Assembly (NCBI RefSeq): GCF_037975245.1
Contig: NC_092562.1
Span: 20,595,054 to 20,659,053, forward strand
Length of the DNA: 64,000 bases
Reading direction: 5' to 3'
Origin: Apostichopus japonicus
Taxonomy: Eukaryota > Echinodermata > Holothuroidea > Aspidochirotida > Stichopodidae
This document shows, piece after piece, positions 5,859-63,704 of this stretch (the stretch's first letter is position 1; every line of letters begins with the position of its first letter). Position numbers and translations under genes: made by a program. The notes below the pieces were generated by a model that searched no databases, had not been told where the DNA came from, and saw only the letters and a list, made by a program, of their open reading frames with translations.

Positions 5859-5989
5859 AATTGAAATACAAATACGCTTAAAACATGCCCACAGAAAGAC
5901 CACGGAGGAAAAATGAGATTATGCTTGATCTCGTGAGATTAGTTTAGCTACGACCCTTCCGCATCCTCATCACCACAGTTAAGTGTTAC

Positions 5990-6017
5990 CAGGGAGTTGT
6001 TCCATAACAACTCCCTG
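5990..6017. mobile_element. Ultra-short palindromic insertion, family A copy 1 (28 bp)
   Basis: A 12-bp arm CAGGGAGTTGTT, a 4-bp centre CCAT and the exact inverse arm are flanked by the perfect direct repeat GTGTTAC (5983-5989 and 6018-6024). The right repeat could be read as 8 bp because of a chance C. The flanking duplication is the hallmark of transposase-mediated insertion. The whole unit is two inverted ends with almost nothing between them. Further copies lie at 29547-29574 and 30091-30115. Confidence 0.8.
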
Positions 6018-7606
6018 GTGTTACCACAAACAGTTGTCTTAGCTTCATGTCTAAGAATCAGAAGCTGAGTCAAACCGCTACCGGGAAGTGACCATTTTCA
6101 GAGGATGAAGCGGAATTATAGAGGGTAGTCAAAATGGGTTATTGTACGGAAGAACTCTGACCAGAATAAGAACAGGGTTTATTAAAATGTTATCTTCTGA
6201 CCTGGTTTCTACTCTTCAGATATATAGACAAGATAGATCAACAAAATAACGTTAATATAGGTAAGGAGAGCAATTGTTTTTTTTTTATTCGTGAAACCGA
6301 CACACCGACACGTTTCTGTCTAGTTTGGTTTCAAAGAAACATGGAAATGATTTTTTTTTGGTGGGTGGGTGGGTGGGTCTGGGAGGGGGGTGGGGAAGGG
6401 TATATCGCCATGTTCTAAAACCATATCTCCGTGTAGTCGTGGGGTTGTTCTTTAAGTCATGTAACTGATGTATACGTGGATGTTACTTCAGTCATGTAAA
6501 CATGGACTTTGCTGATGCATGCTGCTGCTACAAAATGATATGTACATAATGTTCATTCATGATGGATCAGTTTGATAAAAATTGATAAACAACACTGTTT
6601 CTCAATTGTACTTTTGGTGAGCATGCACCGTCGAAATCAATTGCTGCCGAAGTATGATGATATTCGGATAGATATGTACATATACATATGTGAATTGCCA
6701 TGTGCTATGTGGTAGTGTGTGTGACAATATAAATAATCAGTAACACATCTAAGTTATATACCAGCAACGTGTCATTGTTTACACCAGAAACATATATTTA
6801 CATTACGGACATATACATTTACGCCTCTTTACCTCTTCAAGAGTGACTGACTAATCTGAAATTCCTAAGCTGCCCGCATACCTTCGAAAATATTAAATGT
6901 ATTCCGGGGATTGTGATGTTGATAACGGAGAGACTATATATGAGAGAGGGGTAATATGACCTTCAAAAGAATACAAGCTATCCTATTTTTGTTTTCATTT
7001 GACGTACCCGGAGTATATTTGACCCACCCCAACCATCTTCCTATCCCAACCCCAACCCATACCCCTTCCCTGCTCACTCTCCTCCTTCCCACTCTCGCCC
7101 CCCCCCTCCCCCTCAATCCTTCATCATAATTTGTCCCAAAGATCATTCCAACCTCTATAATTCCTTTTTTTATTCCAAGATTATTCAATAAAAGTAATAT
7201 TTCGGCTATAGTTTTACCGCGAGTCCCCTTGAAGAAAATATCCTCTTGCATAATCAATCAATGATTACCCATTGAGTCAATACAAACTATTTTAGTTGGG
7301 ACAAGGTGTGAGTTTAAACTTCAATCCGATTAAAACAGCCATACAGTTATATCAGCCAAATCTGGCATACATTGTCGCCACTGGTGACTAATAATCAAGT
7401 TAGTTCAAAAGCCAATCCATTCAGTATTGAACACCATTGTCAGCCGTGTTATACACATGTAGTACATGTCACTTGATTAGTACACATCAAGAATGTGTAG
7501 GACAAATAACAACAGTTTATGCACGTTAGGTTAGGAAGGTTCGCTGTTGCTTAATTATTAGAGTACAGTTCTGTTAAAGTTTAATGTGTGTTCGTCTATT
7601 GCAGTC

Positions 7607-28194
<20,588 letters not shown>

Positions 28195-28361: not shown

Positions 28362-29546
28362 GTATGACCTGTGTATGTATTTTAATGGTTACATAACGCA
28401 TTGTGGCTAAGATCAAGTGATCACGTGTAAACAGTACACGGTAGATAGCTCGTCAATATTTAATCTGACTATATGTATATTGTCTGTTTCCCTGTCCAAG
28501 GGAGTCATGATACTCACTTGACGTAACATCGCCATGATCAGATATTGTTACAGTCTCAAGATAACGGGACTGAGATTGAGAGTGGATTCAGTTGTTTGAT
28601 TTTCGTGCCCAGGCTATATTTTAAAGTTAAAACTACAGTATGAAAAGTTTCCCCCAAAAATAAATGAGGACATTATTGAAGAACTTAGCATGCATAGACT
28701 CCGGATGTGTGAACTAAGTAATTCACTTTGGCTTCGGCTTTGATTACAACAATTATGTATGCTGCCATGTTGGACGAATGTAATTACCGACTTTGCGATC
28801 CGCGTTATAGTCATTGCCGACTTTACAATCCTCGGATCCCCTCACAATATTGCAACGTCAGCAAACAACAAAAAGCACTGTTATGTGTATCTCAACAAAG
28901 TTTCATCGGTAATTTTTTATGAATTCTCCATGAAAGCAGTGGTCACCCTATTTAGCTAACCTCTAAACACTTGTTAGTTTTCCTGATATCGTGTAACTAA
29001 AAACAATAGGTAATATCCAATATCTTGTTTTGCTTTGAATATGCTATTGACATTACGTGATGTTAAAGTATATCACAACGAATGAATATTGAAATGAAAG
29101 TGATAGAAATGTTTGAAAAGGAAACAGATAATTCGAAGGTGTCCCCCACCCCCCAGCCCCAAAGGACCTCTCGCGATGTCGATCAGGGGGTAAACTCCTT
29201 TAGTAGGCCTATTAGAAGTTGTCACCAAACCAAACTACATCATGCAATTTAGTTATGCAGAAAGAAAGATCAGTCGAATATAATACCCGACCAAGTATAT
29301 GCACGTTCTTGAAACGGAAGGTTGTTTGCTCTATTTTTGGCATGTTAAGTGACAAGTAAGGGTGTGTTCACAATGATGTCATATAGTCTTAATGTCCAGC
29401 GTGTGATTCCCGGTAGGATATATCTGTTTTCGTTTTAAGTCACGTTGCGACTGCATTATATAGCTTTTAGAAGTAACAGCAACTTAAAAACGTGTTTTCT
29501 TATATCATCGTTGTCTATACAGTCCCAATCAAGTTTTCCCTTGAAC

Positions 29547-29574
29547 CAGGGAGTTGTTATGGAACAACTCCCTG
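29547..29574. mobile_element. Ultra-short palindromic insertion, family A copy 2 (28 bp)
   Basis: It has the same 12-bp arms as copy 1 and the centre ATGG, the reverse complement of copy 1's CCAT, so it is inserted in the opposite orientation. The flanks are the perfect 7-bp duplication CTTGAAC (29540-29546 and 29575-29581). Confidence 0.82.
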
Positions 29575-30090
29575 CTTGAACTAAAAATAACAGTTACACT
29601 GTAAATACGTCCCGACTTGTTTGTTTCTGATAATGAGTGCTATTTTTAAGCACGCGTGGTGGTCATTAACTTGCCTGTAACCTGTGCCTAAATTAAGAGT
29701 ACTCGCTGGGAGTATCATGCAAAGAGGCGGCTGTTGATTTAGAGGTCACAATTTGCAGAGTCAATTTGTATAAGGAGGGATGTTCTGGACTGCGTGATTT
29801 TCATTTTATATATATTTTTAAATCGGGAAGTATGAGTTGTATAACTGGTTCCATTTTGCCTACAAGAACTTTCGGCGTCCCATAAATTTTACTGAGCTTG
29901 GTTAATCTACAGGCATGGTACACTTACATTTAGAACTTACATAAAGAACTTCAGCCATAATGCCATAAAGTTGGGGAAAAAAATAGATTTTATATCCTTA
30001 AAATACAACAGTGTCTAATCTTTCATAAACCGAACTCTATACGTTTTGAAACTGTCGTGGTTTCTTTTGTAGGCGGCTCTTATGTGTTAT

Positions 30091-30115
30091 CAGGGAGTTG
30101 TTATAACACTCCCTG
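30091..30115. mobile_element. Ultra-short palindromic insertion, family A copy 3 (25 bp, decayed)
   Basis: It starts CAGGGAGTTGTTAT and ends AACACTCCCTG, three bases shorter than the other copies. The flanks are the perfect 7-bp duplication GTGTTAT (30084-30090 and 30116-30122), nearly the same target as copy 1 (GTGTTAC). Confidence 0.78.
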
Positions 30116-31041
30116 GTGTTATTAACCGATATACAGGCCACACTGACGCTAACGTTCGATCCACTAATTAGTCAACACATCATAACTTAGGCATTTCCAT
30201 ACCACGTGGTCTTGCATCAAGTTCAAATACTTTACGTCGACTAGGTGAAGAGTATCTTATCTAACCCCTGAAAACATGTCTACCATAAGCCTTGAACTAT
30301 AGGTAAAGCAGACAGATATAGGCTGCATAGGCTAGTACTAACAATAGAATATTGAGGGCCAACACAAGGAACGCCCGTAGCTAGAGTCTAACCTGGGGTC
30401 GTTAACTGTGTTAAAATTGACTAACATATTTGGGGGACGGCGATAATTTAATGCATTTAATTGATATTTGCGCCTATAAGTGTGACAGGTTTGTAGACTG
30501 TAGTACTGAGTAACAACCGAACGAGCAGATATACGCATATAAAAACAGACTACACTAAGACCAATCGAGGGACATATTTTGGATTCGATTAGTCTTGGTA
30601 AAGACGCTTGTCAATTCGTATTGCGGGATAAATTACCATATAGAGGGCGCTTGTCCAGTATATTATCACGTACTAATCAAATGGTAAATCAAATATTAAT
30701 TTATATGGCCTACTGTGTTACAGGGTGTGAAAAACTCGCGCAAAAAGAAACGTATACTGCCGGTAATCTGACCTAGTTTCGAATGAGGTGCAACAGAAGT
30801 GTTAGACACCACCATCGATCCCAGAAAATACACACACAGCTTGCTACCGTCGGTAACTTAGAAACTAGTGAAAGGTCAATACATGCAGCTACGGTCAATA
30901 CCCACAGCACAGTGTACATAGCAGCGATGGACATCTCAGGTCCAGCTAAAGATAACAAGGTATCACGTTTCATTACTGTCTGCATTTTGTAGCGACAAGA
31001 GAAAAACTTCACTTGGAAGCAAACGGAAAGTTAACTTTTTT

Positions 31042-63148: not shown

Positions 63149-63219
63149 ATTTAGTAATCACTTCAACTATGAAAATTTCATTTATGGTGGCCGGTGTCTT
63201 TACCCAGGCTATAGTACTC

Positions 63220-63250
63220 CAACGAGGTAAATGAATCATTTACCTCGTTG
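63220..63250. mobile_element. Ultra-short palindromic insertion, family B (31 bp)
   Basis: A 15-bp arm CAACGAGGTAAATGA, one central A, and the exact inverse arm are flanked by the perfect 8-bp duplication TAGTACTC (63212-63219 and 63251-63258). It lies 72 bp upstream of the OXCT1 start codon, so it is in the promoter or 5' UTR; if transcribed it could form a 15-bp hairpin. Confidence 0.8.
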
Positions 63251-63704
63251 TAGTACTCTAGTACTAGAAGCACATAAACACATGCGTACCTGGCAGTCGT
63301 ATTAGTTATATGGTAACTCATGCTAGATATGTAACGTATACGATTCTGGTCAGTACGCTGAACTTTGCGTTTTTTGCCAGATGGTGTTGGTTTTAAATGG
63401 AAAAGCACGTGCCTGGATGCACCCCCCCCCCCACCCGGCAATAGATCTAAAAGCATGAGGAGGTTAATTAAGCGGTTGGGTTGAAGGGCAATGGGTGTGG
63501 AAGAGGCGTGGAAAGATAACATATATTTTTTGTATCTTCACACCCTCCATGTTACCAAAATCTTTCAAAAAAGGTGGGGGGGATCCAGCTTTACCAAAAG
63601 ACTGCTTCCCTTTCCCTCTTCAGCCCTCCGATTAAAATTTGGTGGTTGCGTGCCATGGCCTTTGTTCCGGCTTATCGACGTCCACACAAATTCTGCCAAC
63701 CCAC

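Follow-up and report, generated by a model that had tools for sequence, protein, structure and literature searches.

The short palindromes in a 64-kb stretch of the Apostichopus japonicus genome (C2:20595054-20659053, in the following called the window) are, at a probability that we put at about 0.9, excision scars of a P-superfamily transposon, that is, donor-site joins of its two ends, and not mobile elements. An earlier note on this DNA had presented them as ultra-short mobile insertions and had mentioned the end-joining of two inverted ends as another possible origin. The footprint interpretation is supported, as the 28-bp unit is composed of two fragments of the end of a 12-13 kb element and is one of many joins. 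The view of an independent ultra-short element is not supported: the 28-mer is without an interior of its own, and the same pair of ends has been joined in many other ways elsewhere.

Palindromes in the window

The palindrome at 5990..6017 reads CAGGGAGTTGTT-CCAT-AACAACTCCCTG and is bordered by GTGTTAC at 5983..5989 and 6018..6024; the reported anatomy of a 12-bp arm, four bases and the inverse arm within a perfect 7-bp repeat is exact at 5983-6024. Read as a scar, it would contain 12 nt of one transposon end and 16-18 nt of the other, with TT common to both (all window features are given without strand assignment). The 28-bp palindrome at 29547..29574 represents the same join in reverse orientation and lies between CTTGAAC at 29540..29546 and 29575..29581. 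A third copy at 30091..30115 is located inside a perfect GTGTTAT repeat (30084..30090 and 30116..30122). It can be read as another join with 14 nt of one end and a second arm that looks one base short. The statement that two further copies in the window have their own perfect 7-bp repeats is correct for both repeats, but the third copy has 25 bp and imperfect arms instead of 28 bp.

When the window was scanned for perfect direct repeats enclosing inverted arms of 8 bp or more, five structures were detected, namely the three palindromes and two others whose repeats have 8 bp. In 10 block shuffles of the window no such structure with 6-10 bp repeats occurred. The 12-bp arm alone yielded 10 matches in the window at up to 2 mismatches, a number that was reached in 6 of 100 shuffles. 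The excess in the window is clear for paired arms inside direct repeats and not clear for the arm alone.

Two additional regions of the window resemble scars by anatomy only, and no parent was found for them. At 8704..8746 a 27-bp structure with the ends CATAGAAA/TTTCTATG is enclosed by the perfect 8-bp duplication CAATAAAG, and a related 30-bp palindrome, CATAGAAATTGAA-TTAC-TTCAATTTCTATG, is present at locus L096 with no evident duplication. Both are possibly scars of another P-like family. The second region, at 63212..63258, consists of 15-bp arms (CAACGAGGTAAATGA-A-TCATTTACCTCGTTG) within the perfect 8-bp duplication TAGTACTC and is possibly the scar of a third family.

Genome-wide copies and target-site duplications

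Searching the genome (671.6 Mb, 35 contigs) for the arm followed by its inverse, as the earlier note had proposed, revealed 424 copies of the exact 12-4-12 palindrome and 0 of a reversed control pattern. The core reads CCAT on one strand in 386 of these 424, both numbers including copies carried by larger repeats. For 40 further 28-mers on C3-C6 the flanking 7-bp sequences were compared: 23 duplications were perfect, 13 had one mismatch, 3 had two and 1 had five. Lack of duplications at most genomic copies had been named as evidence against insertion; in fact 36 of the 40 carry one within 1 mismatch. After moving the right-hand stretch by 1, 2, 3, 4, 5 or 10 bp only 0 or 1 of the 40 matched. 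Left and right 7-mers of different loci agreed within 1 mismatch in 62 of 1560 pairs, which is due to a common target preference and common repeats. Judged by the 12-bp flanks, 9 of the 40 loci belong to two dispersed repeats, which reduces the set to about 33 distinct flanks. The target duplications follow the consensus G-T-N-W-N-A-C; of the 170 strand readings of scars, 152 have T at position 2, and A at position 6 follows by symmetry.

Empty sites were identified at two loci, and insertion with target duplication, as originally suggested, is upheld by them. At L048 one 53-bp unit of a tandem array contains the palindrome and GGTGGAC twice; the other units contain GGTGGAC or a variant once. 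At L050 another copy of the surrounding repeat has GTCTGAG once. The third locus that was tried, L041, has an 8-bp duplication and tandem neighbours that are only 75-87% alike, and it was not counted as an empty site.

Some scars have been copied within larger dispersed repeats or duplications (L011, L013, L014, L016 and L019; L005 and L015), and more are carried by larger repeats or duplications at L151, L152, L154, L175, L176 and L179. The age of such scars could be ordered relative to the spread of the repeat.

The parent element and its coding capacity

Longer elements with the same ends and a transposase, for which a search had been recommended, do exist. Two complete elements of 12,042 bp (C3:19626415-19638456, GTCTGAC on both sides) and 13,118 bp (C17:23626432-23639549, CTGAAAC on both sides) contain P-type transposase ORFs. 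Two complete short derivatives have 4,480 bp (C12:11435185-11439664, duplication GGTAATG) and 4,560 bp (C2:29714454-29719013, duplication GTTTAAC). The duplications are perfect and 7 bp long in all four cases, although GGTAATG fits the GT...AC bias only partly. A further +/- pair of ends is located on C17, with 46.8 kb between the ends. The terminal repeats comprise 33 bp and start with CAGGGAGTTGTTATGGAATGG, and the two ends of one element agree at 32 or 33 positions; the terminal inverted repeats of Anopheles P elements have 27-31 bp, according to the available part of PMC1562414. Genome-wide, the parent end CAGGGAGTTGTTATGGAATGGAGTT occurs 24 times at up to 2 mismatches and 17 times exactly.

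In the long form, a 628-aa ORF matches the Pfam domains PF21787 (TNP-like_RNaseH_N, 1.8e-29) and PF12017 (Tnp_P_element, 2.1e-5), and a downstream ORF matches PF21789 (TNP-like_RNaseH_C, 3.2e-8). The predicted protein resembles the Drosophila P transposase 6p5a (phmmer, 1.4e-9). Judged by these similarities, the parent, 12-13 kb long and flanked by 7-bp duplications, carries a P-superfamily transposase. The 628-aa ORF, taken as an ORF sequence and not as a gene model, gave no THAP match up to E 1; weak, sub-threshold matches to RAG1_imp_bd (0.0019) and zf-AD (0.027) were obtained for its N-terminal part, and the RAG1 match in the PDB has an E value of 0.55. A second gene, on the opposite strand and converging on the transposase, encodes a protein whose cysteine cluster is PHD-like (sub-threshold matches). 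Homologues of this protein are unnamed proteins in A. japonicus and Holothuria leucospilota, and two A. japonicus proteins share 88% and 94% identity with parts of one element-encoded protein. The pair of P-type transposase and convergent PHD-like gene is found at L146:2816-4699 and L147:3037-6180. This layout recalls RAG1/RAG2-type transposons; the likeness is possibly superficial. In the short derivative, Pfam detected no transposase among six ORFs, the largest of which has its homologues among unnamed proteins of sea cucumbers.

Two other origins were considered and discarded. A hAT origin, suggested by the CAGGG end, was dropped because the parent carries a P transposase. KolobokP, which has been recorded from A. 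japonicus and for which excision footprints are described, has TTAA duplications and does not fit, as far as the available part of PMC9587614 shows.

Arm lengths and variety of the joins

By sequence comparison, the arms of the palindromes correspond to the parent's 33-bp terminal repeat, of which they represent the outer 18-19 nt. Genome-wide, 890 arms (386 + 504) read as the end to 18 nt and 26 to 20 nt; in the 28-mer, part of the 18-nt reading may derive from the partner arm, and a true tail of 16-19 nt is possible. Ends reaching 25 nt with up to 2 mismatches number 24. The arm classes CAGGGAGTTGTTATGH, CAGGGAGTTGTTATGGB and CAGGGAGTTGTTATGGAAD are represented 489, 148 and 504 times in the genome. 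Added to the 386 exact 28-mers, they make a total of 1,527 arms, all of which reach 15 nt. The counts refer to arms, not sites, and do not cover arms of less than 15 nt, arms that stop precisely at position 17, or ATGGAAC arms unless these belong to the exact 28-mer. With at most two arms per site, this total corresponds to about 760 sites or more, among them copies that lie within larger repeats.

For a closer view of the joins, 78 arms were fetched (20 of CAGGGAGTTGTTATGH, 37 of CAGGGAGTTGTTATGGB and 21 of CAGGGAGTTGTTATGGAAD). Three of the 21 CAGGGAGTTGTTATGGAAD arms were set aside, two being ends of the C2 element and one lying inside it, and 75 sites remained. A mixed set of 119 site records was compiled without ten long or overlapping pieces (L106-L108, L126, L139 and L146-L150). 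Both sets were picked by pattern from the first places listed and are not random samples. Among the 75 arm-chosen sites, a 7-bp duplication within 60 bp was found with up to one mismatch in 53 cases, with two in 16 and with more in 6. The cross-locus chance control gave 91 of 750, and some of the accepted duplications will be due to chance at the search range of 50-60 bp (12% in the control, which is inflated by the common target preference). In the mixed set 85 of 119 records have a duplication with at most 1 mismatch, 56 of them perfect, and in 84 of these 85 the longer arm does not exceed 19 nt. The 34 records with no duplication within 1 mismatch include several that are one site entered twice or nested joins. 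By eye, 9 of the 75 sites (L090, L091, L094, L110, L119, L129, L136, L144 and L145) lacked both a clear second arm and a clear duplication, and no second end was found for L090, L091 and L094 in about 3.6 kb.

The remaining remnants are short and consist of two arms trimmed to differing points, of a lone arm between duplications (L097, L117), or of arms and filler. Filler was examined at 21 junctions with at least 8 unexplained bases. It is often templated, with copies from the ends or the duplication, for example at L006, L008, L010, L012, L017 and L116, and the filler of L006 contains a third copy of the target duplication. No template was evident at L007, L094, L110 and L142. Both L021 rows, L068, L074, L098 and L101 among the 21 reflect parsing effects, namely a mutated arm or an 8-bp duplication. 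MITEs have a common interior and spread as a unit; the remnants studied here have no interior beyond the ends, and their junctions vary from site to site.

At L020, a 35-bp palindrome at 890-924 (CAGGGAGCTGCT...AGCAGCTCCCTG) lies between GTTTAAT and GTTTGAT. It is likely the scar of a sister family with altered ends.

Origin of the palindromes

Under the excision model, a P-superfamily transposon would insert with a 7-bp target duplication and would later be cut out by its transposase in a staggered manner, with one strand at each end cut about 18-19 nt inward, a stagger that we infer from the arm lengths. Two copies of the same 3' single-stranded tail would then face each other. The host would join these tails by alternative, polymerase-theta-like end joining with short internal pairings and trimming, and filler would sometimes be copied from the tails and the target duplication. 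The favoured 28-mer would arise by pairing between AA, the last two bases of one tail, and the TT that occupies positions 11-12 in the other. If the terminal two bases of one 18-nt tail have to pair, just two products are expected, a 25-mer, identical to L005, and the dominant 28-mer. The same rule predicts a 31-mer and a 36-mer for a 19-nt tail; the 31-mer is present in L138, L140 and L143, and the 36-mer was absent among the fetched sites. Tails of 16 and 17 nt yield no product under the two-base rule.

One point against the scar reading is the dominance of a single junction: it is present in 386 exact copies, as would be expected of clonal spread too. The 28-bp palindrome would then be a minimal transposon moved in trans by a P-type transposase, in agreement with the single asymmetric core common to these copies and with their many different sites bearing 7-bp duplications. 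We consider this improbable. A clone would not produce the rest of the population, the diverse joins of the same two ends, and since two-base pairing of 18-nt tails gives the 28-mer, one cut position can explain the favoured product and its core without clonal spread. Moreover, in a unit of this size the two cuts, each 18 nt from its end, would overlap, which should make it impossible to excise with such a stagger, and fly P elements require long end sequences.

Similarly unlikely, and perhaps a little more so, are solo remnants formed by internal deletion in place, through abortive gap repair or slippage between the inverted ends, with no excision. L007, in which one end is retained over about 57 nt and the other over 10-13 nt, looks as abortive gap repair would yield, but such deletions have no obvious reason to halt at 18-19 nt, and the arms drop from 890 at 18 nt to 26 at 20 nt. 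We infer excision rather than deletion in place, with a polymerase-theta-like joining enzyme; within the one assembly, no locus both filled and scarred was seen among the fetched loci. Chance palindromes or a sequence-specific regulatory motif would agree with the behavior of the arm alone, which shows no clear excess in the window. This explanation has practically no probability in view of the 424 copies versus 0 of the control pattern, the target duplications and the empty sites.

Comparison with known systems

The remnants of the sea cucumber show the same product types and the same anatomy as the excision products of the Drosophila P element in Table 1 of PMC2895639, a paper of which parts were available. 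According to these parts, the Drosophila P transposase leaves 17-nt 3' tails, and the joined tails appear as duplication, partial end, microhomology or insert, partial other end and duplication, each partial end being no longer than one tail. Templated insertions at the joins are associated there with polymerase theta, and after excision of P{wa} in spn-A flies two-base AT and TA pairings were frequent, with 14 and 5 isolates in two rows. The P{wa} products were obtained in the laboratory at a single site, and their tails and duplications measure 17 nt and 8 bp (PMC2895639), whereas the sea cucumber scars are natural heritable sites in hundreds, with tails of presumably 18-19 nt and 7-bp duplications.

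The terminal repeats of Galileo, a member of the P superfamily in Drosophila, are very long, unlike the 33 bp of the parent. Galileo also makes 7-bp duplications, with the palindromic consensus GTANTAC compared with G-T-N-W-N-A-C here, and the available part of PMC4168063 mentions no scar population. Excision scars with deletions and filler, as found here, have been read from genome sequences in rice; that study compared two genomes and reported 94 putative excisions from several superfamilies, with no P element among them in the part of PMC4423477 at hand. MITEs, including P-related MITEs of Anopheles, are likewise short and have inverted ends and target duplications; as far as the accessible part of PMC1562414 goes, they differ by their common interior and longer ends from the palindromes described here, which have no interior and many junctions.

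Significance

Among the matches listed in searches of the open literature, titles and abstracts contained no description of a natural genome-wide population of P-type scars, and no paper on P elements in sea cucumbers was found. Laboratory footprints of the fly P element (PMC2895639) and the 7-bp GT...AC duplications of Galileo (PMC4168063) are known, to the extent covered by the available parts of these papers. The chemistry is known as well; what we have not seen described is the family, together with the scale and the state, in which scars far outnumber elements. There appear to be at least several hundred scars compared with about four or five whole elements, a ratio that is silent on the excised length, as many of the excised elements may have been short derivatives.

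A broader reading, which we offer as a tentative and rather doubtful proposal, is that a P family has burned itself out by excision in this sea cucumber lineage. Its breaks would mostly have been sealed by polymerase-theta-type joining and not by refill from the sister or homologue, leaving on the order of a thousand heritable scars versus about four or five whole elements. The same proposal sees in the element an unusual P form, with its convergent PHD-like zinc-finger gene and a weakly RAG1-like transposase N-terminus, recalling RAG transposons.

The finding is a warning for repeat annotation: scars of this kind may be taken for ultra-short transposons, and a transposon may have been far more active in the past than its surviving copies imply. 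The scar set represents a natural repair assay, with near-identical breaks at hundreds of germline sites and each product preserved. From it the rules of germline end joining, such as microhomology choice and templated insertion, could be read for an animal that does not serve as a laboratory model.
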